Source: Anoxynatronum buryatiense
GTDB lineage: Bacteria; Bacillota; Clostridia; Peptostreptococcales; Tindalliaceae
Assembly (NCBI RefSeq): GCF_900182905.1
Contig: NZ_FXUF01000015.1
Location: 39,825 to 103,824, forward strand
Direction of reading: 5' to 3'
DNA length: 64,000 nucleotides
Numbering within the stretch: position 1 is the stretch's first letter; the number at the start of each line of letters is the position of its first letter. This document shows, piece after piece, positions 7,636 through 57,160 of this stretch. Under the pieces are notes generated by a model. The model saw only the letters and a list, made by a program, of their open reading frames with translations. It did not search any database and had not been told where the DNA came from. The position numbers and the translations under genes are program-made.

Positions 7636-8740
7636 TCAGGCTTTCATCTGTTCCCGCAAATACCCGTATATAAAGGGATCCAGATCCCCATCCATGACAC
7701 CGTACACATTCCCCACTTCCACATTGGTGCGGTGATCTTTCACCATGCTGTAGGGGTGGAACACATAGGAACGAATTTGACTTCCCCAGGCAATCTGGCT
7801 GTAGTCTCCCTGTAGTTCCTCGATTTTTTCTTTGTTCTCTTCTATTTTCAGCTCGATGAGCTTGCCTTTCAGCACTTTCAGAGCTGTTTCCTTATTGGAA
7901 TGCTGGGAACGCTGGTTCTGGCACTGTACCACAATTCCCGTGGGGATGTGGGTGATGCGCACCGCTGAATCTGTTTTGTTGACGTGCTGGCCTCCGGCAC
8001 CACTGGAGCGGTAGGTGTCGATACGCAGGTCTGACACCTGAATGTCCACTTCCACGGTGTCGTCCAGTTCGGGCATGACATCCACCGAAGCAAAAGAGGT
8101 GTGACGTTTGCCGGCAGTGTCAAACGGAGACAGCCGTACCAGCCGGTGAACCCCTTTTTCGGCCTTTAAGTAGCCGTAAGCATTTTCCCCCTTAACGGTA
8201 AAGGTAACGCTCTTAATGCCGGCTTCCGGATCGTTCTGGAGGTCGTAGACATCCAGTCCGTAGCCGCTGGCATCTGCCCAACGGGTGTACATGCGGTACA
8301 GCATTTCCGCCCAGTCCTGGGCGTCCAGTCCGCCGGTACCGGCATGAATGGACACAATGGCATTTAAGTGATCGTACTCACCACTGAGGAGGGTTTTCAG
8401 CTGGATGGTTTCCACCTGTTTTTTCAGGCTTTCCAGCCCTTTCACAAAATCTTTTTCAAACTCCGACTCCCCTTCTTCCAAAAAATACAGCAGGGTCATC
8501 AGATCATCGTGGGCTTTTTCCAATCCCTGGTATTCCGCCACCTTGTTCTGGAGGTTTTTGCTGGTTTTCAGCACCTCCTGGGCAACATCATGGTCATCCC
8601 AGAAACCAGGGGATGCCATTTTCAGTTCCAGTTCTTCCATTCGCTGTTGCAGACCTGGGACGTCAAAGAGAAGCCCCCATTTCAGTGATGTTTTCTTTCA
8701 GTTCCTGCACTTCTGCCCGGAGATTTTCCAGATTCAGCAT
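7636..8740 (-). CDS. prfB: Peptide chain release factor 2 with programmed +1 frameshift
   Basis: RF2 recognises UGA and UAA stop codons and triggers peptide release on the ribosome. The long second frame (8664-7636) shows the SPF stop-recognition motif (LVRLSPFD) and the GGQ catalytic motif (SGAGGQHVNK). The true start is an ATG at 8740 with AAGGAAGG upstream. It gives MLNLENLRAEVQELKENITE plus MGASL, then a UGA at 8663-8665, after which reading continues in the +1 frame as DVPGLQQR and the conserved protein, about 367 residues in total, the usual RF2 length. It follows secA within about 30 bp, an order common in Firmicutes. Annotation from the internal ATG at 8640 would truncate the protein. 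Confidence 0.95.
8663..8681 (-). other. prfB autoregulatory +1 frameshift site
   Basis: On the minus strand the site reads GGGGGC, TTCT, then CTT TGA C: a Shine-Dalgarno-like G-run, a slippery CTT codon and the in-frame UGA at 8663-8665. When RF2 is scarce the ribosome pauses at UGA and slips by +1 to make RF2. This is the classical arrangement, although the spacer codon is TCT rather than the more usual TAT. Confidence 0.9.
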
Positions 8741-8772
8741 CTTTTCACCTTCCTTATCGCTGTGCTTCAGTA

Positions 8773-11451
8773 TTACACACCGCAACACTTTTTGTATTTT
8801 TTACCGCTGCCGCAGGGGCAGGGATCATTGCGACCGACTTTTTCTTTGTTCACCACGGTACCGCTGCCGGAAACGCTGCCGTCACTGCCAGGAACAGGGT
8901 TCACCTTCACCACTGCTTTTCGCTGCACCACTGCGTCCTTTTGGAGGTGGAAGAGCACTTTCACCGTTTCTTCCTGAATGTTGCGGATCATCTCCTGGAA
9001 CATGTCAAAGCCTTCTTTTTGGTAAGCCCGCACCGGGTCTTCCTGCCCGATGGCCCGTAGCCCGATGCCCTGTTTCAACTGATCCATGGCATCGATGTGA
9101 TCCATCCACTTGGTGTCCACCACCCGGAGCATGAGGATCCGTTCGATTTCACGGAGGCGTTCAGCGCTGATTTCCTGTTCCTTCACCTCATAATGAGCCA
9201 GGCAATGCTGCAGAATTTCCTCCCGCAGCCCATGCTTTGTGAGTGATTCCACATCAGACGCATCATAGAAAGTTTCCAGGCTGAACTGGGCCTGGAGATG
9301 CCGGTTCAGGTCTTCCAGTTCCCATTCTTCGGGATATTCGCTGTTGGCGGTATATAGTTCCAGGGCGCTGTCGATGATGGTTTCCACCATGGCCAGGATT
9401 TGATCCCGCATGTCTTCCCCATCCAGCACCTTGCGGCGTTCGTTGTAAATGACTTCCCGCTGTTTGTTCATCACGTCATCATACTGGAGGACATGCTTGC
9501 GGATGCCAAAGTTGCGCCCCTCCACTTTTTTCTGTGCATTTTCAATGGATCTGGACAACATGCCATGTTCAATGGCCATGTCGTCTTCCAGTCCCAGTTT
9601 TTCCACCAGTCCCTGCATCCGCTCACCGCCGAAAAGACGCATGAGGTCGTCTTCAAGGGAGATGAAAAAGCGGGAAGAACCCGGGTCTCCCTGCCGGCCG
9701 GCACGACCGCGCAGCTGGTTGTCAATACGCCGGGATTCATGGCGTTCGGTTCCGATGATATGCAGACCGCCGGCGGCAATGACCGCCTGGTGCTCTGTAT
9801 CTGTTTCCTGTTTATACTGCTGATGAAGCCGCTCATATTCCCGGGCAACGGCCTGAATTTCAGGATCGTCTGGAATGGTGAGGGCTGTGACAGCTGCCAG
9901 CACTTCATCGTCAATACCCTTTGCCTTCAGATCCCGCTTTGCCAGAAACTCCGGATTACCTCCCAGCAGAATGTCTGTACCCCGGCCAGCCATATTGGTG
10001 GCAATGGTCACCGCACCCTTGCGGCCTGCCTGGGCCACAATTTCAGCTTCCCGCTCGTGCTGTTTGGCATTAAGAACTTCGTGCTTCACGCCTTTTTTCT
10101 GCAGCATACGGGAAATAAGTTCAGACCGTTCAATGGAAATGGTACCCACCAGCACCGGCTGTCCCGTGGCATGGTGTTCAATGATTTCTTCCACCACCGC
10201 TGCGTATTTTCCCGGTTCATTCTTGTAAATGGCATCGGCATGGTCTTCCCGCACCACCGGTTCATTGGTGGGAATCTCCACCACATCCATCCCGTAAATG
10301 GCCTTGAATTCTTCTTCTTCAGTTTTGGCGGTACCCGTCATACCGGCAATTTTCTGGTACATACGGAAGTAATTCTGGAAAGTGATGGTGGCCAAAGTAC
10401 GGGATTCCCGGCGGACATCCAGACCTTCTTTGGCTTCAATGGCCTGGTGCAGCCCGTCACTGTACCGGCGCCCAAACATGAGGCGGCCGGTGAAGTCATC
10501 CACAATGATCACTTCGCCGTCTTTCACCACATAGTCTTTGTCACGTTTCATCAAATTATTGGCCTTCAGGGCCTGGTTGATGTGGTGGGAAATTTCCATG
10601 TTTTCCGGATCTGACAAATTTTCAAGGGAAAAATGCTTTTCGGCAATTTCCACCCCTTCTTCTGTCAGGGCCACCGAATTTGCTTTTTCATCCACATTGT
10701 AGTGGATTTCGTTCTTAAGCCCCCGCACAAAGTGGTCCACCAGGGCATAGAGCTGAGTGGACTTTTCGCCTTCTCCTGAAATGATGAGGGGGGTGCGGGC
10801 TTCATCAATGAGGATGCTGTCCACCTCATCCACAATGACATAGTTGAGATCCCGCTGCACCATGTTGTCTTTCTGGATTACCATGTTATCTCTCAGGTAG
10901 TCGAACCCAAACTCGTTATTGGTACCGTAGGTGATGTCTGCCTCGTAGATGGCTTTTTTTTCTGCCGGAGACAGACCGTGCACATTGACACCCGTGGTCA
11001 TTCCCAGAAATTCATAAACCTTACCCATCCATTCACAGTCACGGCGGGCCAGATAATCATTCACCGTCACCACGTGAACCCCTTTGTCTGACAGGGCATT
11101 GAGGTATACCGGCAGGGTGGCCATCAGGGTTTTTCCTTCACCGGTTTTCATTTCAGAAATGCGCCCCTGATGAAGCACAATACCGCCATAAAGCTGTACC
11201 GGGTAATGCTTCAGCCCCAGCACCCGCCAGGCGGCTTCACGAACAGTGGCGAAGGCTTCAGGCAAAAGATCGTCCAGGGTCTCTCCCTGGGCCAGCCGCG
11301 CTTTATACTCAATGGTTTTTGCCCTTAGGGTTTCGTTGCTCATGGCTGCAAAGGTGCTGTCAAGGGCTTCAATTTTTTTAACCAGCGGATCCATGCGTTT
11401 TAACTCCCGCTCGCTGTATGATCCGAACACTTTTTCAAATAATGCTTTCAA
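8773..11451 (-). CDS. secA: Preprotein translocase ATPase SecA
   Basis: This 892-residue motor drives secretory proteins through SecYEG. Visible landmarks are Walker A (MKTGEGKTL), the DEAD-type motif ([20 protein letters not shown]), the motif VI region ([20 protein letters not shown]), helical scaffold and wing domains, and the zinc-binding tail [18 protein letters not shown]. The length is normal. Translation starts at TTG (11451) with GAGGTGAAAG upstream. It lies between the DUF5317-like gene and prfB, all on the minus strand, in the conserved hpf-secA-prfB order. Confidence 0.98.
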
Positions 11452-11486
11452 TTTCTTTCACCTCGTTTATGAATTGGTGGCGCTTA

Positions 11487-12092
11487 CTATCGCCAGATTT
11501 TTCCCTTGTGGTCAATCCGAATGACCCGGGCTTTTTGATAGTGGCCGTCTCCCATTAGAAGGCTTTGAATCCAGACGAAAAGACCCATCGATATCACCAG
11601 ATCACCAATGGAAAACACCTGGCGAATGGGATAGGCGGCAGGCGGTGTGAGGCGCTTACCCAAAAATGCCAGCCATCCGCCGGGGCCTTCTGTCAGCTGA
11701 TATTGCAACAGCCGTCCTGACTGAATCAATTCTAATCTGTTGGTGAAACCGGCTTTTTCAAGGGCTTCAACCGCAATGGGCACTGTGCCGCCATTGAGAA
11801 AGATCACGGCAAAATTCAGCAGGCTCCCCAGAATCAGCAGCCACACGGCCTTGTTATTCAAATTAAAAAACAATGCAATGAATAGAAGACCATAGCTGAC
11901 GGCATAAAACACCAGCCTGAAGTCCAGAAACAACCGGCTTCCTGCCAGCATCATGAACGACAGGGCAGCCTGAATCAGAAAAGCCAGTACCAGCAGTGCC
12001 GACATGCGAATGTGGGCGCTGCGCAAACTTTTCAGATTGCCGCCGCGGAACAGGCCGATGGCAATGCCCAGCATGAGGGCTTCGATGAACAT
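11487..12092 (-). CDS. DUF5317-like integral membrane protein
   Basis: This 201-residue protein has five or six predicted membrane segments, for example LLVLAFLIQAALSFMMLAG, FYAVSYGLLFIALFF, AVWLLILGSLLNFAVIFL and FSIGDLVISMGLFVWIQSLL. A conserved-looking loop reads NGGTVPIAVEALEKAG. These features match the DUF5317 family of unknown function. It sits between hpf and secA but is separated from hpf by that gene's terminator, so it probably starts its own transcript with secA. AAGGAAGTG precedes the ATG. Confidence 0.65.
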   Translation of the reverse strand: MFIEALMLGIAIGLFRGGNLKSLRSAHIRMSALLVLAFLIQAALSFMMLAGSRLFLDFRLVFYAVSYGLLFIALFFNLNNKAVWLLILGSLLNFAVIFLNGGTVPIAVEALEKAGFTNRLELIQSGRLLQYQLTEGPGGWLAFLGKRLTPPAAYPIRQVFSIGDLVISMGLFVWIQSLLMGDGHYQKARVIRIDHKGKIWR

Positions 12093-12284: not shown

Positions 12285-12821
12285 TTATTCCACATTGGGT
12301 TCAATCAGCCCGTAGTTGCCGTCACGCCGCTTATAAATCACATTGACTTCATTGGTCTCATCATTGGCAAATACAAAGAAGCTGTGACCCACCAGTTCCA
12401 TTTGAAGAATGGCTTCTTCATGATTCATGGGCTTCACCGGGAATCGTTTGGTCTTGACGATGCGGGCTTCAAAGCTGTCATCAGTCTCATCCATGGGGAT
12501 ATTTTCAAACCTGATGGTTTCATAATGATTGATCCGGTTACGCTCCAGTTTGGTCTTATGCTTTCTCAACTGGGCAGCAAGCTTATCAACCACTTTATCC
12601 ATGGTGTTATACATGTCAATGGTGGCTTCCTCTGCTCGCAGCACTGATCCGCTGATGGGAATGGTTGCCTCCATGATCTGACGTTCCTTTTGCACCGAGA
12701 GGGTGACTTTCGCCTCAGCCTCCTTACTGAAATACTTATCCAGCTTCTCCATTTTAGCCACAATGGTATCTCTCAAAGCATCTGTCACATTAATGTTCTT
12801 TCCGGTAACTGTTACTTTCAT
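12285..12821 (-). CDS. hpf: Ribosome hibernation promoting factor, long form
   Basis: This protein of about 178 residues binds the 30S decoding region. Its C-terminal domain dimerises 70S ribosomes into inactive 100S particles under stress. The N-terminal domain starts MKVTVTGKNINVTDALRD and contains KYFSKEAEAKVTLSVQ. The C-terminal dimerisation domain includes VKTKRFPVKPMNHEEAILQM, ELVGHSFFVFANDETNEVNV and IYKRRDGNYGLIEPN. The ATG at 12821 is preferred over the adjacent GTG; AAAGGGGCTGGAG lies upstream. Upstream on the same strand is the DnaA-box-rich intergenic region. Confidence 0.95.
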   Translation of the reverse strand: MKVTVTGKNINVTDALRDTIVAKMEKLDKYFSKEAEAKVTLSVQKERQIMEATIPISGSVLRAEEATIDMYNTMDKVVDKLAAQLRKHKTKLERNRINHYETIRFENIPMDETDDSFEARIVKTKRFPVKPMNHEEAILQMELVGHSFFVFANDETNEVNVIYKRRDGNYGLIEPNVE

Positions 12822-13082
12822 CACTCCAGCCCCTTTCCCTATTTATTTCTCATGCCGGCTGTCATCTCTCAAGTGTCCGGCGATGCCGGTAACTGACACA
12901 TCCGCCCCAGCTGCGAGGTCGGAATGGTGTTAATTGATGGGGAGGATGGTATGTTTCTATATACCCGATTCCTCAGGGGCAAAACAACCGGAAATTAACA
13001 GTTCAAAATAAGTTGGATGACCTACCAATTGCATGGCCGCAGCAGATTTTTTTTCGGGGCGTGTCAGTTTTATCAAAAGGAC

Positions 13083-13238
13083 TGTGGATAAAAAAAGAAA
13101 AGTATGTTCCCTCTTGACATGAAAGGCATTGATTTTACACATTCTTAACAAAGAACGCCCTTTTCTGTGGATAACTCTTGAAATTTGTGGACAAAGTTCA
13201 CCCCACCCTGTGGATAATGTGGGTAAGTCTGTTGATAA
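13083..13238 (+). promoter_or_regulatory. Cluster of DnaA boxes (six, same orientation)
   Basis: Within 156 bp there are three exact TGTGGATAA sequences (13083-13091, 13166-13174, 13209-13217) and three one-mismatch versions: TGTGGACAA (13186-13194), TGTGGGTAA (13218-13226) and TGTTGATAA (13230-13238). All point the same way. TTATCCACA is the DnaA box, and such clusters act as origins, DnaA-titration sites or DnaA-regulated promoters. No dnaA or dnaN is nearby, so a titration or regulatory role is more likely than oriC. The rest of the roughly 520-bp gap (12825-13344) holds no convincing gene. Confidence 0.7.
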
Positions 13239-13344
13239 GTTGAAAACAGCGGATTCTTTTTTCTGCAGGCTGTGTGAAATCATCCCCAAAGTCTCTATGA
13301 GAAAAATGCCATCCGCCGCGGGTCACAAATAAGTTTCCCAGGTC

Positions 13345-14094
13345 CTATAAGTCTTCTTTTTCAATGGGTTCGGAGGGCTTTGCCGGGAAACGTTTTTTGC
13401 CACCTTCCCACTGGGCGCTGATCATTCCCGAAACAGCCATCAGTTCACTGAAAAATTTTTTACCGACATACTTTGCCGGCAGTTTAACGGCAAAATAGGC
13501 TTCTGTGATCATGCCAGGACCTTCATCTTCATCTTCAGATTCCAGCTCTTCCTCTGATACCATACGAATGTCTTTAATGAGAATGCTGTTGTTTCCCATG
13601 ATCTGACCAATATCACCTATCAGGCCTGGACGTTCGTAGAACTGAATGATTAAAACGCGGTATTTCTTCTTAAAGAACTTTTTTTCCAGGACGCCAAGGC
13701 TGCGCAGTGTAAAGAGAACCACCACTGCTGTTACCAAACCACCAAGATAGAAGCCGTTGCCGATGGCCAGCCCAATGCCGCCACACACCCAAAGACTTGC
13801 AGCAGTGGTGAGCCCACTGACTTTATTCTCTGTTCTCAGAATAGTTCCCGCACCCAGAAAACCGATCCCGCTGACCACTTGCGCTGCCAAACGGGCGGGA
13901 TCGCCTCTGTCGGCGGCGGTGAGATGGGTGAAGCCATACATGGAAAGCAGCATGATCAAGGCTGAGCCGACAGTGACCAGCACATGGGTTCTGAGACCTG
14001 CCGGCCGGTTATTGGCTTCCCTTTCCATGCCAATGAAACCTCCGATGACGGCTGACAGCACCAGCCGAAGTATCAACTCGGTTGTGGATATCAA
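13345..14094 (-). CDS. MgtC/SapB family membrane protein
   Basis: This protein of about 249 residues has the MgtC signature: LRLVLSAVIGGFIGMEREAN, RPAGLRTHVLVTVGSALIML, GDPARLAAQVVSGIGFLGAG and TTAASLWVCGGIGLAIGNG. Several membrane helices are followed by a cytoplasmic ACT-like C-terminal domain with an acidic stretch (ELESEDEDEGP). MgtC proteins are linked to magnesium starvation and control of ATP synthase in pathogens; the role here is unknown. The upstream ATG at 14112 overlaps the AAAGGGGG Shine-Dalgarno sequence, so the TTG at 14094 is the probable start. Confidence 0.85.
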   Translation of the reverse strand: MISTTELILRLVLSAVIGGFIGMEREANNRPAGLRTHVLVTVGSALIMLLSMYGFTHLTAADRGDPARLAAQVVSGIGFLGAGTILRTENKVSGLTTAASLWVCGGIGLAIGNGFYLGGLVTAVVVLFTLRSLGVLEKKFFKKKYRVLIIQFYERPGLIGDIGQIMGNNSILIKDIRMVSEEELESEDEDEGPGMITEAYFAVKLPAKYVGKKFFSELMAVSGMISAQWEGGKKRFPAKPSEPIEKEDL

Positions 14095-24233: not shown

Positions 24234-24971
24234 TTACTCAGATGCGTAGCGATGAATGTAGTTGGTGAAAATACCGTCGACTCCCAGCGCCATCAGTTCT
24301 TCTTTTGTGACATGACTCATTTCCTCATAGCCGCCATCGAAGAAGGGGTAGACTTTCAGGCCATTCTCGTGACATTTGTCAACGATTTCCCGATTAATGG
24401 AAAGCAGGCTGGGATGAACTGAGGAGGCACCTATTCGACTCACATACTCCCAGGGCTCCACCAGGACACATGAATACAGGACGCCGGTCTGAAGGGTGTT
24501 GTCCAGCTGCTTCACTCTGAGAATGGAATTGTGATTGAAGGAGGAAAGAATGATTTGATCCTGCACATTCATTTCATGAATCATCTGAATCACTTTCTCT
24601 TCAATGCCCTCATACCAGATCAGACTGTTTTTCAGCTCAATGTTCACCAGAGACTTTTTTCCCACAACCAATTGCAGCGCTTCCCGAAGGGTTGGTATCG
24701 ATTGATTTCGGTAAGCCTCACCATACCACCCCCCTGCATCAAGCTGTTTCAGTTCTGCCAGGGTCTTGTCCATGATGAGTCCGGTTCCATTGGTGGTTCG
24801 ATCCAGCAGTTCATCGTGGCACACCACCAGTTCACCTTCTTTTGTTAAGTGAACATCAAGCTCAAACCCATCTGCACCGGCTTTCAGTGCTTTTTCAAAG
24901 GCAGCCATGGTATTTTCCGGAGCCACTCCCGAATATCCCCGATGCCCAAATATCACCAGCTCATTCTCCAA
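24234..24971 (-). CDS. Glycerophosphodiester phosphodiesterase
   Basis: This 245-residue cytoplasmic enzyme (no signal peptide) hydrolyses glycerophosphodiesters to glycerol 3-phosphate and an alcohol. The GDPD signature is complete: FGHRGYSGVAPENTMAAFEK, GADGFELDVHLTKEGELVVC with the following HDE, and a C-terminal GVDGIFTNYIHRY. The lack of a secretion signal means the substrate must be imported, which fits the ABC importer immediately downstream. The product G3P would feed glpO and activate GlpP. Translation starts at TTG with GGAGG nine bases upstream. Confidence 0.93.
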   Translation of the reverse strand: MENELVIFGHRGYSGVAPENTMAAFEKALKAGADGFELDVHLTKEGELVVCHDELLDRTTNGTGLIMDKTLAELKQLDAGGWYGEAYRNQSIPTLREALQLVVGKKSLVNIELKNSLIWYEGIEEKVIQMIHEMNVQDQIILSSFNHNSILRVKQLDNTLQTGVLYSCVLVEPWEYVSRIGASSVHPSLLSINREIVDKCHENGLKVYPFFDGGYEEMSHVTKEELMALGVDGIFTNYIHRYASE

Positions 24972-25221
24972 AACCCTGCACCTCCATTAATGTTTCTTCT
25001 TTCCCTGCTGACAGCACATGGTCTTTATGGATCTACTGCAAAGACTGTGCCAATGTTGGAATCGGTTGCTTAATCAGCATTTTCAGTCTTTTTCCCCTGC
25101 ATCATCTGGTTTTTTTTACCAAAACCACCACCTTCATCAACGACGGGCTGGTAAAAATTCCCAACCAGGGGGATGTCACAGGCATCCGTCAGAAGCATGC
25201 TGTCATTCCATGGAAAAAGGC

Positions 25222-25439
25222 AAAAAAAAAGGACAATAGAAGCTGACCTGGTCTTTGACCCCACACTCGCCTGCTGGAAGCCTTGCTCCGGGTTTGCCGT
25301 CACGCCGCTTCTCTCGGGTTTGATCCCGGCAGGGCTTACTCCTAAGCCGCACCATGATCAGCAGCACATTTGGCTGCGTTACGTGGGTCCTTTCGCCTGC
25401 GACTGGCATGGACTTTCAACCACAGACCTTCTATTGCCC
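25222..25439 (-). ncRNA. Stand-alone structured RNA gene, about 218 nt
   Basis: A TATAAT box at 25449-25444 is followed on the minus strand by an RNA whose 5' end (25439-25428) pairs over 12 bp with its 3' end (25242-25231) and then runs into nine T (25230-25222), so the closing stem doubles as terminator. Inside, several further hairpins can be drawn: GTCC/GGAC around GCC/GGC, GCAGC/GCTGC, GGCTTA/TAAGCC with a GGAG loop, and CGGG/CCCG. Purine-rich GAAA and GAGA joints separate them. No good reading frame fits. It is too short for RNase P RNA and too branched for 6S RNA. The raiA-type motif has a similar size and should be tested first. Function unknown. Confidence 0.75.
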
Positions 25440-25443
25440 TTTT

Positions 25444-25449
25444 ATTATA
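25444..25449 (-). promoter_or_regulatory. -10 box of the structured RNA gene
   Basis: TATAAT on the minus strand, five or six bases before the predicted RNA 5' end at about 25439. The -35 region is weak. The rest of the 24972-25561 gap holds the RNA itself and no recognised gene. Confidence 0.65.
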
Positions 25450-25561
25450 TCAAATTTTCATCCATCTGAGTAGCCGTCCCCGGATTTTTCAGAAGAGTGA
25501 TTCACCAATCACAGCAGGATGCGCCACGATCCATACTGCTGCCAGCATTTGTACAGATCAT

Positions 25562-27061
25562 TTATTCTGCTTGTTCCCACTGAAGGGAGCGCTGAACCGC
25601 CCGACGCCACTGGCTGAGTTGCTGCTTTCTTTCAACCGGTTCCATCGCGGGTTCAAAGATGTGATCTTCCTGCTGTAATAGGGACAATTCTTGCTGGTTT
25701 TGCCAGAAACCAACGGCCAGCCCTGCCAGAAAAGCAGCGCCTTGTGCAGTACTCTCCACTTTTAAGGGGCGCAACACCGGGACCTGCAGCATATCTGCCT
25801 GAAATTGCATCAGGAAATCATTCTGAGCCGCACCCCCATCCACCTTCAGGGCAGGAATGATGATGTCCGCATCATCTGCCATGGCTTCCAGTATGTCGCA
25901 GGTCTGGTAGGCGATTGATTCCAGCGCTGCTCTCACCAAATGTTCGGCTTTGGTTCCCCTGGTAAGTCCCACCATGGTGCCCCGGGCGTACATGTCCCAG
26001 TGGGGAGCTCCCAGACCGACAAAGGCAGGCACCAGGTACACACCGCCATTGTCAGGCACTTTCAGTGCCATGGCTTCTGTTTCTGCCGCATCCCGAATCA
26101 GGCGCAGTTCATCACGAAGCCACTGAATGACAGCACCTGCCACGAAAATACTGCCCTCCAGAGCATACGTAAGCTGCCCGTCAATTCCCCAGGCGATGGT
26201 GGTTAAGAGCCCATGGGATGAAGGGATGGGTGTTTCGCCTGTATTCATTAACAAGAAACAGCCGGTGCCATAGGTGTTTTTCACCATGCCCTGCCGAAAG
26301 CAGGTTTGCCCAAAAAGAGCCGCCTGCTGGTCACCTGCCACGCCGCTAATGGGAATACGGGCGCCGCCGAAAGTGTGGGGGTCTGTATAGCCATAGATCC
26401 CGCTGGAATTTTTCACCTCCGGCATCATGGCCGGCGGGATATCCAGCAAGGCCAGCAGCTCTTCATCCCATTCTCCGGTGTGGATATTGAAGAGCATGGT
26501 GCGGGAAGCATTGGAATAATCAGTGGCATGCACTTCTCCCCGGGTCAGGTTCCAAATGAGCCAGGTGTCGATGGTGCCAAAGAGAAGATCTCCTTTTGCG
26601 GCCATTTCCCGGGCTCCGGGCACATGATCCAAAATCCATTTGATCTTGGTGCCTGAAAAGTAGGCATCCACCACAAGACCGGTTTTCCTTTTGATGGTTT
26701 CTTCCAGGCCCTGTTCTTTGAGTCTGTCGCACATTTCTGCCGTGCGGCGGCATTGCCATACAATGGCGTGATGCACGGGCCGGCCTGTTTCCCGGTGCCA
26801 GACCACGGTGGTTTCCCGTTGGTTGGTGATGCCAATGGCGGCAATTTCTTCGGGGCGAATCCCGGTTTTTTCCAACACTTCCCGGGCAACACCGCTCTGG
26901 GTTCCCCATATTTCCATGGGGTCATGTTCCACCCACCCAGGCTGAGGGTATCGTTGCAGAAATTCCTTTTGGGCCACCCCGCACACGTCTCCCTGGCGGT
27001 TCAGCAGAAGGGCTCGTGAACTGGTGGTTCCCTGGTCCAGTGCCATGATGTATTGTTTCAT
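25562..27061 (-). CDS. glpK: Glycerol kinase
   Basis: This 499-residue FGGY kinase phosphorylates glycerol to G3P with ATP. Landmarks are [17 protein letters not shown] at the N-terminus, [59 protein letters not shown] and [19 protein letters not shown], all typical of GlpK. The length is normal. The gene has its own promoter and no glycerol facilitator gene next to it. Its product feeds glpO at 16.0 kb and the GlpP signal. A His in [10 protein letters not shown] lies about where Firmicute GlpK is activated by HPr phosphorylation, but the alignment is by eye. Confidence 0.96.
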
Positions 27062-33744: not shown

Positions 33745-34461
33745 TTAACCGCGCTGTCTTCTAACCCTGAATCGAAAAACGTCATTTCTCATGTAATCAA
33801 TTGAGTACAAAACTGCTCTGTTCCGTTCATCATAATGCACTTGTTTCATAATCATAACCGTTTTGCTGCCTGTGGGGTCAATTTTTCTGATCTCCGGCGA
33901 AATACTGTCGGGAACCATTAGTTCCGAGTCGGCGCGGGCGACGTAAATTTCACAGTGCTGCTCCAGAAAAGAGAAGAGGGATCCGGCAAAATCATCATTT
34001 TCGAAGGCTTCTCCCACAAGTTGATAGGGCATCACGTTGATTGAGAAAGCCACTGCTTCATCATCTGCAAAACGTACTCTTTCAAGTACCAGCACTTCAT
34101 CGCCCTCATTCAGTCCCAACGCCTGTGCCCACTCTTTCCGGCAATTCTGTTTACCAATCGATTCACGACTTTCACTTTCACGCATGCCCGCATGCCGAAT
34201 CATGGCCCCCATGCTTTGTAATTGCTCCAGGCTGCTGGGAATACTCTCCAGAGGTTTGATAATAAAGGTGCCCACGCCATGCTTCACCAGGAGTTTTCCC
34301 TCCTGTTCCAGCAGTTTAACTGCTGCTCGAAAAGTCTCCCGGCTAACGTTGAACCGGCTGGCCATTTCGTATTCAGAAGGCAGCCTTACTCCCACTTCCA
34401 GCTGTTTTTCTTCAATCATGCGGTTGAGTTCGTCGCGAATTCGCAAGTAACTTGGTTTCAT
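33745..34461 (-). CDS. GntR family regulator, HutC subfamily
   Basis: This 238-residue repressor has an N-terminal winged helix (LPSEYEMASRFNVSRETFRA then AVKLLEQEGKLLVKHGVGTF) and a C-terminal UTRA effector domain (GDEVLVLERVRFADDEAVAF; FSFLEQHCEIYVARADSELM). UTRA regulators release DNA when they bind a sugar phosphate or related ligand. It lies directly upstream of the sugar importer operon, whose promoter contains a matching palindrome. The ligand is probably the imported or phosphorylated substrate. Shine-Dalgarno GGAGGG precedes the ATG. Confidence 0.93.
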   Translation of the reverse strand: MKPSYLRIRDELNRMIEEKQLEVGVRLPSEYEMASRFNVSRETFRAAVKLLEQEGKLLVKHGVGTFIIKPLESIPSSLEQLQSMGAMIRHAGMRESESRESIGKQNCRKEWAQALGLNEGDEVLVLERVRFADDEAVAFSINVMPYQLVGEAFENDDFAGSLFSFLEQHCEIYVARADSELMVPDSISPEIRKIDPTGSKTVMIMKQVHYDERNRAVLYSIDYMRNDVFRFRVRRQRG

Positions 34462-34548
34462 TGTATCCCTCCGGGCAGGCGTTTACTCTGGTAAAACATC
34501 GTCAATGTACTCATTCTGACCATCTCTGAACCAGATTTCCTTTTTGTC

Positions 34549-34575
34549 ATTATACCAGATGATCCTGCCATTATA
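34549..34575 (-). promoter_or_regulatory. Probable promoter region of the GntR gene
   Basis: Two TATAAT boxes on the minus strand (34575-34570 and 34554-34549) are 21 bp apart, 90-110 bp before the start. The -35 elements are unclear. The remaining bases of the 34462-34822 gap hold the terminator of the fliD operon and no recognised gene. Confidence 0.4.
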
Positions 34576-34670
34576 TATAATAATGAAAGCGGATCTGTTG
34601 AATCAGGCACTCTTTTCACCCGCGCTTGCATGCAATGCTTCCCAAAACCCGTCAACAAAGCCATTAAACT

Positions 34671-34707
34671 GCAAAAAACTGCTGTCCCGGTATAAGAGAC
34701 AGCAGTT
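34671..34707 (-). terminator. Terminator of the flaG-fliD-flgN-like operon
   Basis: Perfect 10-bp arms at 34677-34686 and 34698-34707 are followed on the minus strand by a run of T (34676-34673 plus the stem edge). It lies about 115 bp past the last gene, leaving a 3' region with nothing recognised. Confidence 0.85.
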
Positions 34708-34822
34708 ACGGGTTTGTTATCATTTGTGCTTGGGTAACAGCCAACCGACAGTTTCAGATGAGTTGCCCGCTATAACATCTTCCGCAACTCTCAAATCGCT
34801 TGAACCAAGTTTCTCACTCAGC

Positions 34823-35335
34823 TCATTTTCTTCGCGAAGGCTTTTCTTTTTGATCCATAAAGAGGGGGGGCTGGGGCTGTTTGGTATTGGCATACCCATG
34901 AATGGCCTTTTTCCCCTGCTGTACCTGGGTAATCTCTTTTTTTAAAGAGGCCATTTGCTTCTTCATGGATTCACGGTTTTCGTCATCCACCTGTTGAATC
35001 GCCTTCAATAACTGCTGCACCTGGTCAACCGCACCCTGCAGCCCATGCACTTGTTCACGGGAAATTTCTCCCGCCGGAATCTCTTCCATCGACTTGATTC
35101 CCAAATGCTCTTTCAAGCTATTAAAAGCGGTGAGAAACAGGGCATCCACCTTGTCTGCCTGTTCCATCAGCTGACCCCTTTCTGTCAAAAGAAGGGTGAA
35201 GGCTTCCAGATCAAGATTTTCCGATGTGTTCAGGAGATCCTTTTGTTCCATGGTAAAACGCAGGAGATCTTTGAGGATCCCCTGCTTTTCATTTAAATAC
35301 TGCGTCAGATTGTTCACTGTTTCATTGATGTCCAT
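34823..35335 (-). CDS. FlgN/FliT-like flagellar export chaperone
   Basis: This 170-residue protein is helical throughout with coiled-coil potential: NLTQYLNEKQGILKDLLRFT, MEQKDLLNTSENLDLEAFTL and LQGAVDQVQQLLKAIQQVDD. It ends in a basic, Gln/Pro-rich tail. Size, charge pattern and position after fliD fit FlgN (hook-filament junction chaperone) or FliT (FliD chaperone); the position favours a FliD or junction-protein partner. AGGAGG precedes the ATG. Sequence identity to the named families could not be checked. Confidence 0.6.
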   Translation of the reverse strand: MDINETVNNLTQYLNEKQGILKDLLRFTMEQKDLLNTSENLDLEAFTLLLTERGQLMEQADKVDALFLTAFNSLKEHLGIKSMEEIPAGEISREQVHGLQGAVDQVQQLLKAIQQVDDENRESMKKQMASLKKEITQVQQGKKAIHGYANTKQPQPPLFMDQKEKPSRRK

Positions 35336-35357: not shown

Positions 35358-36974
35358 TTACATAGCTCCCATATGAGCTCCCAGCCAGCTGGCTTGGTTG
35401 TTCAACTCACTCAAGGCTTTCTCCATGGCTGTGAACCGTTTCCAGTATGCTTCTTCTTTTCGGAACAAAGCCTGTTCTTCCCGGGCAATACGAGTGTTGA
35501 GAGTGCTGAGTTCTCGATCCATCAAGCTGCGGGAACTGTTTTTAGTGACATAGTCGATGAGCATATTTCCCTGAACCGACCGGTACAGGCTGGCATTTTC
35601 ACCGGTGCCTCCCCGTCGCACCAAATCTTTCATCCCGATGACTATCTCGTCGTTGATTCGCTGGAACAGACCGCTGTTTTGTGAGCGTTCCTTAGAATCG
35701 GTGGCGTCAGAGGTTTTAAAGATCAAATTCATCACACCGTCTGCATCAGCAGCAATGGCTTCCCGCAGTTTATCTTCATCAATTACCAAACGTCCTCCAT
35801 CACGAAAATTGCCGGTGGTGATGCCAATTTGAGTGATTTGGTTGAAGGTGCCTGTGGTATTTTTGACCGGCTCGTAGAGCAGGCCTCGCATGTTCTGAAC
35901 CATTCGGGTCAGGGTTTCGTCGTTACGCAGCAACCCACTTTTCGATTTTTCTTCCCATTGTTCGATGTCCCGCTCTGTCATGGAAAGCTTTTGCTCATCG
36001 GTGAGGGGAGCGTAGCTCTGATGATAAGCTTCACTGGTTTTCCCACCGATTAAATCCAGCAATCCATTGTATTGGTCAACAAACCCTTTGATCTTGTCCA
36101 CAATACCATCCACATTGGTGTTGACGTTGATGTTGATGGTGGCGTATTCGTCGGTGGTTCCCTCCACCAAGGTGGTTTCTTTTAAATTGAGATTAATGCC
36201 ATAGACGCTAAAGTTATTGGTACTTCGTTTCACATCCAGGCCATTGAAGGTGATTTCTGCATCTTTTCCCGTTTTGTTGCGATCATCAGCCTCAAAAATA
36301 GCACTGCCCAGTCCGCCGACTCCAATATCAATCTTTTGATTGGCGCCAGTGGTCCGGCTGCTGATCATCAAGCTGCCCACTTCACGGTCATAAGAGGCGC
36401 TGAGTCCCAGAGATTTTCCGTCTGCGTCTGTGGCGCGGTTAATCTGATTCACCAAAGTGAAGACAGTGTCACCTGCTTTCACTGTAAAGGTTTCACCGTT
36501 AATCTCCAGGTTCTGGGTGTCTTCTCCACTCAGGTTAAAAGTATAGCCGTCCGCCTTCAGAAGATCCTCACCGCCCACCTGCACGTCTTTCAGGTTCAAT
36601 GAGTTGGTGCGAGCCACTTCCGCCAGCTGCTTCACCTGTACCTGGTGGGTTCCCTGCATGGCGTTGGCATTAGCCGTTGCCGTCACCGCTGTTGTATTAG
36701 ATGACCGGGCACTCTTCACCCAGTTGAACTGATCCACATTCGTTGCTCTGAACTGGCCGGTGTAGGTTACCTGATTCAGACCAAAATCTTTTCGGGCGTC
36801 CAGCAAAAAATTGGCCAGACTTTTGGTCATATCATGCAAGCCTTCCTGGCGCCACTGGGTACGCTGCTCCTGCTGGAGATAGCGATCCACCTTCATGCGC
36901 TCCACCCGCATCATCTGATCAATCATTCCCTGCACATCAATACCGGAACTGAGTCCGCCTAATCGCATTGTCAT
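35358..36974 (-). CDS. fliD: Flagellar filament cap protein FliD
   Basis: This protein of 538 residues caps the growing filament and folds flagellin subunits. The N-terminal FliD motif (MRLGGLSSGIDVQGMIDQMM), the middle GINLNLKETTLVEGTTDEY and the C-terminal helix with LNTRIAREEQALFRKEEAYW, FTAMEKALSELNNQASWLG are characteristic. The upstream TTG is less likely than ATG 36974, which has AAAGGAG nine bases before it. It lies between flaG and a chaperone gene on one sigma-D-driven transcript. Confidence 0.96.
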   Translation of the reverse strand: MTMRLGGLSSGIDVQGMIDQMMRVERMKVDRYLQQEQRTQWRQEGLHDMTKSLANFLLDARKDFGLNQVTYTGQFRATNVDQFNWVKSARSSNTTAVTATANANAMQGTHQVQVKQLAEVARTNSLNLKDVQVGGEDLLKADGYTFNLSGEDTQNLEINGETFTVKAGDTVFTLVNQINRATDADGKSLGLSASYDREVGSLMISSRTTGANQKIDIGVGGLGSAIFEADDRNKTGKDAEITFNGLDVKRSTNNFSVYGINLNLKETTLVEGTTDEYATININVNTNVDGIVDKIKGFVDQYNGLLDLIGGKTSEAYHQSYAPLTDEQKLSMTERDIEQWEEKSKSGLLRNDETLTRMVQNMRGLLYEPVKNTTGTFNQITQIGITTGNFRDGGRLVIDEDKLREAIAADADGVMNLIFKTSDATDSKERSQNSGLFQRINDEIVIGMKDLVRRGGTGENASLYRSVQGNMLIDYVTKNSSRSLMDRELSTLNTRIAREEQALFRKEEAYWKRFTAMEKALSELNNQASWLGAHMGAM

Positions 36975-37069
36975 TCTCAAACACTCCTTTCAGCCGGCGA
37001 CCGCCGCCTTTTCTGTCATGTGTCCCTGGTGTTATTTCCATTCATCAGTGTGTCCAACCGCCGCATCGT

Positions 37070-50514: not shown

Positions 50515-51738
50515 TCACTTGCCTTCGTAGGCCATCACCTTTTTCACCGCTGTCACCACATCACTGGCATCTTCATCTGACATGGCGGGGTAGAGAGGCA
50601 GCGTGATGCAGGATTCATAATAGGCTTCTGCCTGGGGGCAAATCCCCTTCTGATAGCCCAGTTGCTGGTAATAAGGATGCCAGTACACCGGCAGGTAATG
50701 CACGTTCACACCAATATTTTCTGCCCGAAGGGCATCAAAGAACCATCGGCGCCGGTCCATGGTGTTTTTTCCTCTCAGCCGAATGACGTATAAATGCCAG
50801 GCAGAAATCGCTTCTGGAGAAAGGTGAGGAAGCTGAAGAGCTTCCAATGGCGAAAACGCCTGCTGATAAAAGGCCGCCAGCTGCTGCCGTCGTTCCAGAA
50901 ACAAGTGGATTTTTTTCAGTTGGCTGATTCCCAGAGCACTTTGCAGGTCGGTGAGGCGGTAATTGTAGCCTAAAAGCCTTTGGGCCTGGTACCAAGGGCC
51001 ATGAGCCTCTTCCAAACCTTCACCTGTGCCACTTTGCTCTGCCGCCTTGGTGATCCCATGACTGCGGAACAGCCTTAATTTTTCAGCCAGCTGCGCATCA
51101 CTGGTAACCACCGCGCCGCCTTCTCCGGTGGTAATCAGTTTCACCGGATGAAAGCTGCAGGTGGTCATATGGGCCAGGCATCCTACGGGGGTTCCCTTCC
51201 ATGACCCGCCCAAAGAATGGGCGGCGTCTTCAATGACTATCAGGCCATGCTTTTCGGCAATGGCCATAATGGCCTCCATATTGGCTGGCTGACCAGTGAA
51301 ATCCACCGGAATAATGGCTTTGGTGCGGGGGGTGATGGCTTTTTCAATGGCTGTCGGGTCAATGTTCCAGGTGAGGGGATCAATGTCGGCAAACACCGGG
51401 GTGCCTCCCTGATACAGCACGGCATTGGCAGAGGCCGCAAAGGTGATGGGGGTGGTAATCACTTCATCTCCCGGGCCGATTCCCGCTGCATGACAGGCCG
51501 CATGGAGGGCGGCTGTGCCGTTGGAAACACTGACGGCATAAGCTGCTCCTGCTTTTTCTGCCAGCGCTTTTTCAAAAGCCTCCACCGAGGGGCCTGTGGT
51601 CAGGTAGTCACTTTGCAATGCTGCGTGCACCACTGCCTCGTCTTCGGGGGTAATCCACTGCTTGCCATATGGCAGTAACTGGCTGCGCACCGGTTGACCA
51701 CCGTGAATGGCCAGCGGGCTTTCAATTGATGATTTCAT
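50515..51738 (-). CDS. pseC: UDP-4-amino-4,6-dideoxy-N-acetyl-beta-L-altrosamine transaminase (PseC/SpsC)
   Basis: This 407-residue DegT/DnrJ/EryC1 aminotransferase has the PLP-lysine region TTCSFHPVKLITTGEGGAVV, VSVSNGTAALHAACHAAGIG, and IVIEDAAHSLGGSWKGTPVG. It adds the 4-amino group in the second or third step of pseudaminic acid synthesis. ATG 51738 has AGGAGG upstream; the longer frame has none. It is the last gene of the glycan operon. The PseB dehydratase that makes its substrate is not in the window. Confidence 0.9.
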   Translation of the reverse strand: MKSSIESPLAIHGGQPVRSQLLPYGKQWITPEDEAVVHAALQSDYLTTGPSVEAFEKALAEKAGAAYAVSVSNGTAALHAACHAAGIGPGDEVITTPITFAASANAVLYQGGTPVFADIDPLTWNIDPTAIEKAITPRTKAIIPVDFTGQPANMEAIMAIAEKHGLIVIEDAAHSLGGSWKGTPVGCLAHMTTCSFHPVKLITTGEGGAVVTSDAQLAEKLRLFRSHGITKAAEQSGTGEGLEEAHGPWYQAQRLLGYNYRLTDLQSALGISQLKKIHLFLERRQQLAAFYQQAFSPLEALQLPHLSPEAISAWHLYVIRLRGKNTMDRRRWFFDALRAENIGVNVHYLPVYWHPYYQQLGYQKGICPQAEAYYESCITLPLYPAMSDEDASDVVTAVKKVMAYEGK

Positions 51739-51874
51739 AAAGGATTCCTCCTGATACATGCTGTGTATCATACCATATTCACTGCACTGCTTCTTTTCTG
51801 ATGTAGCTGTTCTTCATGCTCCTTATTCTGCAGCTGAAGGGAGGGATCTTGTTGCCGCTACACGCTACATCGCG

Positions 51875-52822
51875 CTACACCAGGGAAGGATTTTGTCGAA
51901 TCCATTCCCTGGTACGGGAGATCCCCTCTTCCAGCGTCACCTGGGGGTGCCATCCCAGCAGACGGCTGGCTTTTTCATGATTGCACAACAGCTTAGCAAT
52001 TTCACTCTGGGGATGGATATGGGGAACATGTTGAATCCTGTCTGCCTGTGGTTCAATCATGGCTGCCAGGTCATTGATGGTGATATCCCGGCCAAGACCG
52101 GCATTGAGAATTTCTCCGTGTACCTGATCCGACATGCCGGCATTCACCACAAAATCGGCGCAGTCTTCCACAAAAAGAAGGTCCCGGGTTTGGGTACCGT
52201 CGCCGTAGATGTTTAGGGTCTCACCTGCCAGATGACGTTTGATGAAAATGGCCACCACGCCCCCTTCCCCACCGGTTTTCTGGAAGGGCCCGTAAGTGTT
52301 GAAGGGACGCACCACCACCGTGGGCAACCCGTAAGCATGCCAGTAGGACAGCACCATGTTCTCCCCGGCAATCTTACTGCCGGCGTAGGGAGAAACGGGT
52401 TTGATGGGATCTGTTTCGCTGATGCCCTCCGGGCGGGAGGCTTGATCATACACCATGCAGGTGCTCATGAAAACCAGGGGTGTTTTCCATTTTCGACAGC
52501 ATTCCAGCACATTGAAGGTGCCCACCACATCGTTGTCGAAGGTGGTTTGGGGATCGTCGATGCTGTCTTGCACGTTAATGCTGGCCCCCAGGTGATAGCA
52601 TCGGTGGAAGCTGTTTTCAAAAAGACTTTCCAGTAATGAACGGTCTTTGATGTCCCCTTCAGTCACTGACATCAACAGAGGATGACCCTGAAACTCCGCC
52701 AGGTTTTCTTTTCGTCCGTTGGAAAAATCATCCAGCACCCATACCCGGTGCTGTTCCTCCAACAGTTTTTTCACCACCCATCGTCCGATAAACCCGGCTC
52801 CGCCGGTGACAAGTATATTCAA
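51875..52822 (-). CDS. NAD-dependent sugar nucleotide epimerase/dehydratase
   Basis: This extended SDR of about 316 residues has LVTGGAGFIGRWVVKKLLEE (Rossmann), catalytic MSTCMVYD with YAGSK (Y-x3-K), and LNIYGDGTQTRDLLFVEDCA, typical of GalE/RmlB-like enzymes. It does not look like PseB, whose N-terminal glycine motif and catalytic region differ. In this operon it could make another sugar of the same glycan or act on the pseudaminate precursor. The TTG at 52822, behind AAAGGAG, is the likely start; the longer frame begins at an ATG without a ribosome site. Confidence 0.75.
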   Translation of the reverse strand: MNILVTGGAGFIGRWVVKKLLEEQHRVWVLDDFSNGRKENLAEFQGHPLLMSVTEGDIKDRSLLESLFENSFHRCYHLGASINVQDSIDDPQTTFDNDVVGTFNVLECCRKWKTPLVFMSTCMVYDQASRPEGISETDPIKPVSPYAGSKIAGENMVLSYWHAYGLPTVVVRPFNTYGPFQKTGGEGGVVAIFIKRHLAGETLNIYGDGTQTRDLLFVEDCADFVVNAGMSDQVHGEILNAGLGRDITINDLAAMIEPQADRIQHVPHIHPQSEIAKLLCNHEKASRLLGWHPQVTLEEGISRTREWIRQNPSLV

Positions 52823-52888
52823 TGTGGTCAGCTCCTTTTTTGTGTCGATGATCTTCACAGGCTCCCACCTGGAAAATGCTCCGTTTTT

Positions 52889-53605
52889 CTATGTATCCGC
52901 CAGGGTTTTCTGCCGTACCTGCGCATTAATGGCAACAATCTCAGGATGTTGGTCCAAAAACAAGATGATTTCACCGGCGCTGGCATGGCGGTTCCCCATC
53001 CCCTCCGCCACCTTTGTCACCACTTCATAGTCAGCTTCTTCATCCACGCACAGCCGGTAGGGTCGCTGATAGCGGGTACCCAGCGATGCTTTTCCTACTC
53101 TAAACTGTTCCGGATGGGTGTAAAGATAAGATGTGACGTGCTCTGTATACATTGGCTCATCTGCTTTTTCTTCGGCTTCATACAACGCCGTCGCGGCGAC
53201 CACTTCCACATCCAGCCCCCGAATGGATGAGACGCTCGCATAATCCAGTTCCTGCATCCTGTGACAAAGAATTCCATAATCCACCAGCTGAGGATCCACA
53301 AAAGGACAGTCACCGGTGATGCGAATCACCGTCTTGGCTCCGTAATGGCGACTGCAGTCACCATAGCGTCTGAGGACATGCGTCTCATCTCCCCGGAAGA
53401 CTTGGAAACCAGCTTGTTTCACCGCTTCAGCCAGGGGATCGTCCTGGGGGAGATGGGAAGTAGCCAGTACCAGCTGGTCCACGTACTTTGATGCTTGAAG
53501 CCGTTGTAAGGTTTGTAAAATCATGGGTTGACCCGCCAGCTCCATCAATACTTTTCCAGGAAGTCTGGTGGAAGCCATTCGGGCCTGGACAATACAAAGG
53601 TTCAT
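52889..53605 (-). CDS. spsF: SpsF/PseF-like cytidylyltransferase
   Basis: This 238-residue nucleotidyltransferase has CIVQARMASTRLPGKVLMEL (L-x-x-R-x-x-x-R-L-P-x-K), a later TVIRITGDCPFVDPQLVDYG and DEEADYEVVTKVAEG. SpsF-like proteins in nonulosonate operons are predicted to activate the finished acid as its CMP form. It is followed (on the minus strand) by the epimerase gene. ATG behind GAGGCGGG. A role as a different sugar-nucleotide transferase cannot be ruled out. Confidence 0.85.
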   Translation of the reverse strand: MNLCIVQARMASTRLPGKVLMELAGQPMILQTLQRLQASKYVDQLVLATSHLPQDDPLAEAVKQAGFQVFRGDETHVLRRYGDCSRHYGAKTVIRITGDCPFVDPQLVDYGILCHRMQELDYASVSSIRGLDVEVVAATALYEAEEKADEPMYTEHVTSYLYTHPEQFRVGKASLGTRYQRPYRLCVDEEADYEVVTKVAEGMGNRHASAGEIILFLDQHPEIVAINAQVRQKTLADT

Positions 53606-53623
53606 TTTCCCGCCTCATTTCCT

Positions 53624-54721
53624 TCATCGATTGTTGTTTGCCAGCAGCGCCGCCGCCACTCGCTCCGGACCGCGGCCATCCACCAGCCGCTGCATTTTGC
53701 GGCTGGATGTCTGACGCCAAAGGAGGTCTTCCGTCGCCGACAGCAACATTTTTTGATAGTACTGACTGTCAAGTCTTTTATGCCCGCCAAGAGACCTCAC
53801 CAGACCCCTTTTTTCCATGGCGTTCACAAAGGGTTCCTGATTTTCCGCCAACACCAACGCTAGTGTGGGCACTCCCCAAGCCGCCAGCTCATATACAGTT
53901 CCTCCGCCAGCTGAGATTGCCAGGTCCATCTTTTTCATCATGGCCGCCACCTGGTCGGCTGCCATGCGGGGGTATACCTGAATCCCCTGCAAGTTCTGTG
54001 TCTGTTGCTCCCAGGTATGAAAAAGCGGCCCCTGTGCCCCGGTGAGGAGATGAAGGGTCACCGGTTTGGAGGCCATAGCTTCCAGTTTTGGGTAAATCTC
54101 CCACGTCCATTGCAGCAGTTTTTCCTGCCAGCCTTTCTGGTTCCCGCCGCCTGTCATAATGAGCACGTTTAAAACAGTCTCACCCAGTTCTTTAATCGGA
54201 AGATCTCTGAAATCATTGCGCAGAAGAGCGTATTGCCCTCCTGCCAATTTCATTGGAATGGAGAGATTTTCGTAAAAACCACCGGGTTGCAGTTCTTCTT
54301 CAGCACCCACCTGATGGTTCACTAAAAAATCAGCTTCTGAAATCCGATGATGATAATCATCCAGATAACCCACCTGATGAGCGGTATGCTTCAACTGGAG
54401 AACCCAGTCCGGCGACAAGTCGTAGCGATCCAGCACCATTACCTTTTCTTCCGGATCACCTGCCTGCAAGGCCATAAGCCCCATTACTTTGGCCAAAGCA
54501 TCACGGGTGTCCTGCTGCTGCCATCCGCCCTGTTGACACGCCTTCGCCAGTGGATAGCTCAAAAGGCTGCCCGGAAAATCCATGGAAACCGGCGATTCTC
54601 CTGCCACCAGAAAGGTCTGACACCCCTTTTCTCTGAAGGCTTCTGCCAGGGCACCGCATCGGGTCACATGGCCCATTCCCAGAATCGGATTCCCTTCGGT
54701 GATCAGGTAAATCTGCTTCAT
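53624..54721 (-). CDS. pseG: PseG/SpsG-like UDP-sugar hydrolase
   Basis: This protein of about 365 residues has the PseG loop GMGHVTRCGALAEAFREKGC, with the catalytic-type His, and a C-terminal GT-B-like domain with SAGGGTVYELAAWGVPTLAL. PseG removes UDP from UDP-2,4-diacetamido-trideoxy-altrose to free the sugar for condensation by PseI. Its position between the ligase and spsF is tight. ATG 54721 starts the conserved part; an in-frame ATG eight codons earlier has no better ribosome site. Length is slightly above the single-domain norm. Confidence 0.85.
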   Translation of the reverse strand: MKQIYLITEGNPILGMGHVTRCGALAEAFREKGCQTFLVAGESPVSMDFPGSLLSYPLAKACQQGGWQQQDTRDALAKVMGLMALQAGDPEEKVMVLDRYDLSPDWVLQLKHTAHQVGYLDDYHHRISEADFLVNHQVGAEEELQPGGFYENLSIPMKLAGGQYALLRNDFRDLPIKELGETVLNVLIMTGGGNQKGWQEKLLQWTWEIYPKLEAMASKPVTLHLLTGAQGPLFHTWEQQTQNLQGIQVYPRMAADQVAAMMKKMDLAISAGGGTVYELAAWGVPTLALVLAENQEPFVNAMEKRGLVRSLGGHKRLDSQYYQKMLLSATEDLLWRQTSSRKMQRLVDGRGPERVAAALLANNNR

Positions 54722-54788
54722 GGACACCACTGCTTTCTCATGCATATTAAGGGTGACCCAGGGTCACTCATTCACGCTTTATTTGTTG

Positions 54789-56848: not shown

Positions 56849-57156
56849 TGGCCGTCACCTGCCAGCAGCGTTTTGATATACATACTTAAAGCATCAATCT
56901 TGTGAAAGGGATTGTGCTTTTGAGAAAAGGCTTTTTCATCCATTAACGTGATGCTTTCCCCATACTTGTCGTGAACCAGGTCTTCTAAAATCATCACAAG
57001 ATTCACAAAGTCCAGAGAGTCCAGCACCCCTTCTTTTCCAAAAAGAGCCATGTCCTGAGATAAGGTCAGCTTCTGGTCGTCTTCAAGGGTATCATTGAGC
57101 TCTTCCAGCCCTTCCCATACCAATTGGTTGAGCGCCCCCTGTTCAATTTGTTTCAT
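56845..57156 (-). CDS. Acyl carrier protein
   Basis: This small acidic protein of about 103 residues has the phosphopantetheine attachment site in GVLDSLDFVNLVMILEDLV (DSL) and the four-helix ACP pattern. GGAGGGAG eight bases before ATG 57156 decides the start; that Shine-Dalgarno lies in the last codons of pseH. It would carry the acyl group activated by the ligase encoded downstream. It is longer than a fatty-acid ACP (about 77), with extra residues at both ends, so it is a dedicated carrier and not the housekeeping AcpP. Confidence 0.88.
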   Translation of the reverse strand: MKQIEQGALNQLVWEGLEELNDTLEDDQKLTLSQDMALFGKEGVLDSLDFVNLVMILEDLVHDKYGESITLMDEKAFSQKHNPFHKIDALSMYIKTLLAGDGQ

Positions 57157-57160
57157 CGTA

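Follow-up and report, generated by a model that had tools for sequence, protein, structure and literature searches.

A raiA (ModT) RNA with a conserved pseudoknotted fold at an unusual address between glycerol genes of Anoxynatronum buryatiense

The closest described systems to the RNA reported here are the ModT RNA of Clostridioides difficile and the raiA RNA of C. acetobutylicum (PDB 9CXF, 9ELY). According to excerpts of PMC11706538, ModT is an abundant, stable RNA that acts in trans, and the C. difficile mutant shows a delayed growth transition, raised c-di-GMP and defective sporulation; many raiA-bearing bacteria do not sporulate. The same excerpts give comFC upstream and the raiA/hpf gene downstream as the usual neighbours of the RNA (74% and 66%) and describe synteny as a poor guide. 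The copy in A. buryatiense shares with this class the helices P1 and P3-P8, the pseudoknot pk-1, a size of ~205 nt and a promoter-like box just upstream, and with variant 2 of the cryo-EM paper it shares a multi-stem P6-P8 domain (as described in excerpts of PMC11751092). It differs in its position between glpK and gdpD, in the T tail set right behind its closing stem, and in a host family without a spoIVA match.

We analysed a stretch of 64,000 nt from A. buryatiense (GCF_900182905.1, NZ_FXUF01000015.1, positions 39,825-103,824, forward strand), hereafter the window. A search with Infernal cmscan and Rfam 15 returned a full-length match to RF03072 at 176.9 bits against a gathering cut-off of 101.3 (E 6.6e-45), covering 203 nt (25436-25234) of the minus strand. 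This was the sole Rfam RNA match in the whole window: none of the other 4226 families reached its gathering score, among them OLE, 6S, tmRNA, SRP and RNase P RNAs, which are stand-alone structured RNA genes too. The first-pass annotation, drawn from the letters of the DNA, had guessed at a raiA-type RNA, had seen no signatures of RNase P, tmRNA or SRP, and had named an Infernal search of Rfam as the check; the search confirms the raiA guess. Its fallback, a new RNA class resembling raiA only in size, is ruled out by the end-to-end covariance-model match, and the alignment with an intact pseudoknot leaves that reading, for which we found nothing in favour, a negligible probability. By these sequence tests, the RNA adds an ordinary member to an established class, at an unusual location. 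It is present in a single copy in the host genome (4.16 Mb, 47 contigs, completeness 99.81). Its parts are as follows.

25234..25436, minus strand: raiA (ModT) RNA (Rfam RF03072, model positions 1-209 of 209)
25398..25404, minus strand: pseudoknot pk-1, 5' half (AGUCGCA), from covariation in 41 sequences
25345..25351, minus strand: pseudoknot pk-1, 3' half (UGCGGCU), from covariation in 41 sequences
25428..25439, minus strand: 5' arm of the closing stem (P1a plus GGG), from sequence
25231..25242, minus strand: 3' arm of the closing stem (P1a plus TCC), from sequence
25444..25452, minus strand: TGATATAAT, predicted extended -10 promoter element, from sequence and family conservation
25222..25230, minus strand: nine T immediately past the closing stem (a terminator fused to P1 is predicted)

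Energy folding of the minus strand gave -84.8 kcal/mol, whereas shuffled sequences averaged -72.35 (z -2.74) and 1 in 200 of them folded equally well, which is modest evidence by itself and cannot show a pseudoknot; a weak signal is expected for a pseudoknotted RNA. The real proof of a structured RNA is the family match together with covariation. Among 60 genomes of relatives, host included, 44 carry raiA RNA, one of them (G058) as a partial match below the cut-off in a genome that is 63% complete; these many-genome searches used stricter filters, with which weak matches can be lost, and the genomes are not independent. We aligned 41 raiA RNAs, namely the host sequence and 40 of the 43 other matches (G015, G052 and the partial G058 were left out). 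The host sequence shows 56 Rfam pairs; the structure counted first consists of 46 of these, plus ten pairs for P3a, P3b and P4, which we placed after the description of the cryo-EM structure in excerpts of PMC11751092; the ten Rfam pairs omitted are 19-184, 28-174, 29-173, 30-172, 50-85, 51-84, 54-81, 55-80, 58-77 and 113-118.

In this adapted structure, standard pairs fill 95.2% of 2248 pair cells across the 41 sequences, both partners vary in 34 of the 56 pairs, and covariation scores 0.400. On four of five measures no shuffle out of 500 reached the observed value, and on the fifth (the count of further pair types) a single one did, while partners slid out of register paired in 29.5-42.9% of cells. 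The unaltered Rfam structure gave 90.3% of cells paired, both-side changes in 32/56 pairs and a score of 0.390, with the same shuffle outcome; several of the omitted Rfam pairs are poor (for instance 54-81 in 0/41 and 55-80 in 13/41), and P3a and P3b are paired in all 41 sequences. In the cryo-EM structure described in excerpts of PMC11751092, pk-1 joins the P3 loop to the pk-loop by seven pairs. All of them are present in the host copy, at positions 33-39 with 86-92, and the element covaries in the alignment: 99.3% of its cells are paired and five of its seven pairs have both-side changes. All nine P1a pairs are intact in the host, and both partners vary in ten of the twelve P1a and P1b pairs of the alignment. 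Weaker pairs include the outermost ones of P1 (29/39 and 30/41), 112-119 in P7 (26/38) and 140-146 in P8 (30/37). The first-pass annotation had made its reading depend on pairing being conserved in relatives, and the helices and pk-1 indeed covary in the 41 aligned sequences.

Read on the minus strand from 25452, the locus runs through TGATATAAT, AAAAGGG (7 nt), the raiA match, TCC and nine T ending at 25222. The TATAAT box noticed at first reading occupies 25449-25444 and has TGA just before it, an extended -10 pattern. TGnTATAAT stands at the same place in 7/7 genomes of the host family and in none of the other 34, and a perfect TATAAT ends 2-20 nt ahead of the RNA in 25/41 genomes (16/41 are without one), in line with the earlier proposal that the RNA has a promoter of its own, which remains a prediction. 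Base shuffles of the upstream 60 nt gave 1.8 such genomes on expectation and at most 6 in 1000 shuffles, and other flank windows 2% on average and 12% at most. A generic promoter scan of the locus found no sigma-70 pair (0.5 expected) and recognised no -35 box, so the predicted promoter is defined by the extended -10 element.

At the other end, the previously proposed 12-bp closing stem joining both ends was recovered with the arms GGGCAATAGAAG and CTTCTATTGTCC, which a repeat finder also reported as a 19-nt inverted repeat with 89% complementarity, 185 nt apart. Four A-T pairs could extend the stem to 16 (the 9 of P1a and 7 possible ones), the A tract probably lying upstream of the transcript start. 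The nine-T tail, seen likewise at first reading (25230-25222), follows the stem directly, so that the stem itself is the predicted terminator. Being restricted to loops of 3-8 nt, our terminator scan did not list this stem and reported a single different site, 25146-25125 (chance expectation 0.5). A terminator fused to P1 is not unique to the host copy, since a run of at least five T occurs within 12 nt of the match end in 6/41 RNAs, host included. In our own scan, a separate downstream hairpin with a T tail was found in 5/6 family relatives and in 25/40 relatives overall; the host has a hairpin 87 nt beyond the RNA that scores no worse (9.5 vs 9.0) than that of relative G002, so a longer transcript, an isoform like ModT(L), may also arise here. 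In one relative (G037, L140), the closing stem can be extended by 14 further pairs into the flanks, and hpf lies beside the RNA on the opposite strand.

The surroundings of the RNA in the window are the following.

25562..27061, minus strand: glpK, glycerol kinase, upstream neighbour (NF000756 and TIGR01311 over cut-off)
24234..24971, minus strand: gdpD, glycerophosphodiester phosphodiesterase family, downstream neighbour (PF03009, 165 bits)
12285..12824, minus strand: hpf, the raiA protein gene after which the motif is named (PF02482 and TIGR00741 over cut-off)
7636..12092, minus strand: block after hpf with a DUF5317 gene (PF17248), secA and prfB (the last two from translations)
13206..13258, minus strand: non-coding block with DnaA-box-like repeats (blastn 90-98% identity over 31-51 nt in six relatives)
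34826..35335, minus strand: FlgN-like flagellar gene, ends approximate (PF05130, 45 bits)
35358..36980, minus strand: fliD (PF07195, PF02465)

Metabolite riboswitches upstream of glycerol genes are likewise structured RNAs on the same strand as a metabolic gene, and a cis-acting riboswitch or leader at this locus would sense a metabolite and control transcription into gdpD and the downstream transporter operon. The start of gdpD, 262 nt past the RNA on the same strand, and the typing of RF03072 by Rfam itself as "Cis-reg; riboswitch" would suit such a role, but gdpD and glpK are near the RNA only in the host, neither lying within 6 kb of it in any of the 40 other neighbourhoods, several of which are shortened by contig ends. 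The relatives share the RNA but have widely differing neighbours; in contrast to metabolite riboswitches, there is no conserved link to a downstream gene, and no conserved position ahead of a functionally coherent gene set was found, the downstream gene differing among relatives. The nine-T tail, moreover, closes the RNA at its outermost stem, and excerpts of PMC11706538 describe complementation of the C. difficile mutant from another locus. We rejected a riboswitch for the glycerol genes because these neighbours are not conserved, and regard any cis-acting leader here as very unlikely. The first-pass view of a separate gene rather than a glycerol leader is upheld by the presence of the RNA in 44/60 genomes and by the 0/40 count.

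The address itself can be traced through the host family. In all six family relatives, the RNA lies ahead of hpf-DUF5317-secA-prfB, with hpf 289-585 nt downstream (prfB is in the block of five; the contig of G002 ends before it), and fliD with the FlgN-like gene lies upstream in four, a pabC-like gene taking this place in G001 and G006. A tblastn search with the gene adjoining the RNA in G002-G005 landed on the FlgN-like gene of the window (34826..35335). Across the 40 relatives, hpf follows within 6 kb on the same strand in 24, fliD precedes the RNA in 18, and a ComFC-like gene precedes it in 13 (low-identity BLAST matches, approximate). The host copy has neither comFC nor hpf adjoining, and the best comFC-like match is on another contig, below the family cut-off. 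Hence hpf, now 12.4 kb downstream of the RNA, is likely its ancestral downstream neighbour, and the FlgN-like gene its ancestral upstream neighbour.

Between the flagellar and hpf blocks, the window now holds glpK, gdpD, ABC transporters, a glycerol-3-phosphate antiterminator and oxidase-like genes, leaving gaps of ~9.4 kb from the RNA to the FlgN-like/fliD side and ~12.4 kb to the hpf side. These glycerol and transport genes, standing between the RNA and its likely former neighbour blocks, probably explain the odd address. The non-coding block at 13206-13258 separates the RNA from hpf in the six family relatives and stayed with hpf in the host, so the break on that side fell between the RNA and this block. 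Two insertions around a fixed RNA are the simplest reading; the RNA itself may have moved. The related glpK genes of five family members are on contigs other than those of their RNA (in G003 together with glpD-like, glpA-like and glpP-like genes), none of these five glpK regions has a gdpD match, and the sixth member (75% complete) yielded only a distant kinase match at 27% identity.

We found no support for a mobile insertion: searches within 24900-25620 and within 34400-34900, each taken separately, found no direct repeats, and the G+C content, 45%-55% across 7-41 kb of the window, has no step marking an island. A third stretch, 12700-13500, contains one direct repeat, made of the DnaA-box-like units. 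As a separate observation, among the 80 named relatives kept of 375, near records left out, the GdpD-family protein is closest to Bacilli and unnamed Bacillota, with Thermoactinomyces mirandus as the best match at 52% identity, which might reflect a lateral origin of some of the glycerol cluster.

The loss of the usual neighbours would also fit a relic, a raiA RNA that survived the arrival of the glycerol genes by chance and lost its expression; the terminator hairpin of the relatives was found neither beside the RNA nor beside hpf, and the score of 176.9 is slightly below the 178.1-190.9 of the six family relatives. That score nevertheless falls inside the range of the 43 over-cut-off matches (119.4-190.9), and the nine P1a pairs, pk-1 and the promoter-like box are all intact, so that we consider a relic highly improbable. 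That the RNA was kept though both usual neighbours moved away argues for a free-standing gene.

A cluster of DnaA-box-like sites accompanies hpf. With a consensus that we took to be TTATCCACA and at most one mismatch, the window has six sites within ~155 nt upstream of hpf (13083-13238), and 22 of 26 neighbourhoods (L115-L154), host included, have at least four sites within 600 nt upstream of hpf, the exceptions being G026, G037, G038 and G044; in G038 the boxes adjoin the RNA instead. Controls gave 1 of 296 other gene-upstream windows, which are partly coding DNA, and 0 in 100 dinucleotide shuffles. Several families share an array of three boxes whose starts are spaced at 0, 12 and 21. DnaA titration and control of hpf are candidate functions; our literature search found no paper that treats a DnaA box together with hibernation promoting factor.

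Sporulation is one of the traits altered in the C. difficile mutant; the spore gene spoIVA does not track the RNA. In the host family, raiA RNA was found in 7/7 genomes searched and spoIVA (PF09547) matched in none of the seven, one of which is only 75% complete. If missing spoIVA means no spores, the role of the RNA in this lineage cannot be sporulation, and a family without a spoIVA match has kept the RNA throughout. In the 60 relatives, host included, spoIVA is present in 16/44 RNA-bearing and 6/16 RNA-less genomes (Fisher p 1.0), or 16/39 vs 4/13 after quality filtering (p 0.74); in a class sample of 291 genomes the counts are 36/57 and 171/234 (p 0.15). We rejected a sporulation RNA, finding no association with spoIVA either way in the relatives or the class genomes, which accords with the remark in PMC11706538 on raiA-bearing bacteria that do not sporulate. 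The hpf gene is present in 43/44 RNA-bearing and 11/16 RNA-less genomes of the relatives set, a co-occurrence that we do not take as a functional link: the genes are frequent neighbours, and an incomplete assembly may miss both at once (G035, G042), but G022, 99% complete, is also without both.

The GGDEF domain is the part that makes the signal cyclic di-GMP, and GGDEF matches were the c-di-GMP genes we counted. At E 0.001, 10/88 raiA-bearing genomes have no match (8/44 in the relatives set and 2/44 among further class genomes): G009, G020, G026, G031, G041, G044, G048, G052, G128 and G256. These genomes are 97-100% complete, their raiA matches are over the cut-off, and nine of the ten are also without a spoIVA match (G026 has one). 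By family they divide into five (f4), three (f10), one (f60) and one (f64), which points to a small number of independent GGDEF losses. The eight relatives represent just two families, and five share one genus; G128 and G256 add two families, and G201, a genus-mate of G128, has 19 GGDEF matches. The RNA is present in 8/8 GGDEF-less and 36/52 GGDEF-bearing relatives (p 0.095), so absence of GGDEF is tolerated but not shown to be preferred.

With GGDEF matches missing from 10/88 raiA-bearing genomes in four families, the published c-di-GMP route is unlikely to be the shared core function of raiA RNA. In the host it is possible, since its genome has 36 GGDEF matches. Excerpts of PMC11706538, PMC11751092, PMC12286853 and PMC11477304 yielded no statement on raiA RNA in GGDEF-less genomes. 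The ten genomes provide natural tests, as the c-di-GMP explanation cannot hold there in its published form.

Taken as a whole, a raiA RNA matching its class end to end, likely transcribed alone, with a predicted stop of its own and a probable trans role at the exit from growth, is the reading we hold with high confidence. The predicted promoter would drive the RNA by itself, transcription would end with the closing stem, and the RNA would influence in trans how cells leave active growth, not the adjoining glycerol genes. We infer that the host RNA is likely transcribed, and a trans role is likely by analogy with C. acetobutylicum and C. difficile. The work of Soares (2024) in C. acetobutylicum is reportedly one of two papers that established this trans role. 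As for molecular activity, a compact RNA that binds a protein or ligand appears most likely, with downstream effects such as c-di-GMP level and sporulation differing between lineages.

Sporulation and c-di-GMP are thus probably lineage-specific read-outs of a more basic role. More tentatively, and with less than even confidence, we propose that raiA/ModT RNA does not have sporulation or c-di-GMP control as its conserved function and would act on a central process of growth arrest, one retained by small anaerobes that have lost both of these systems. If so, the usual locus of the RNA in this order, with hpf (ribosome hibernation), secA and the conserved DnaA-box cluster, would hint at ribosome or replication shut-down. 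For a broadly conserved bacterial RNA, the host copy and its relatives narrow the search for its activity.

Elsewhere in the window, 50515-63857 holds a surface-sugar gene block beside a flagellar fliS-like gene. Its translations presumably represent aminotransferase-like, epimerase-like, cytidylyltransferase-like, N-acetylneuraminate synthase-like and glycosyltransferase-like proteins, and the block looks like one for flagellin glycosylation with legionaminic-type sugars.
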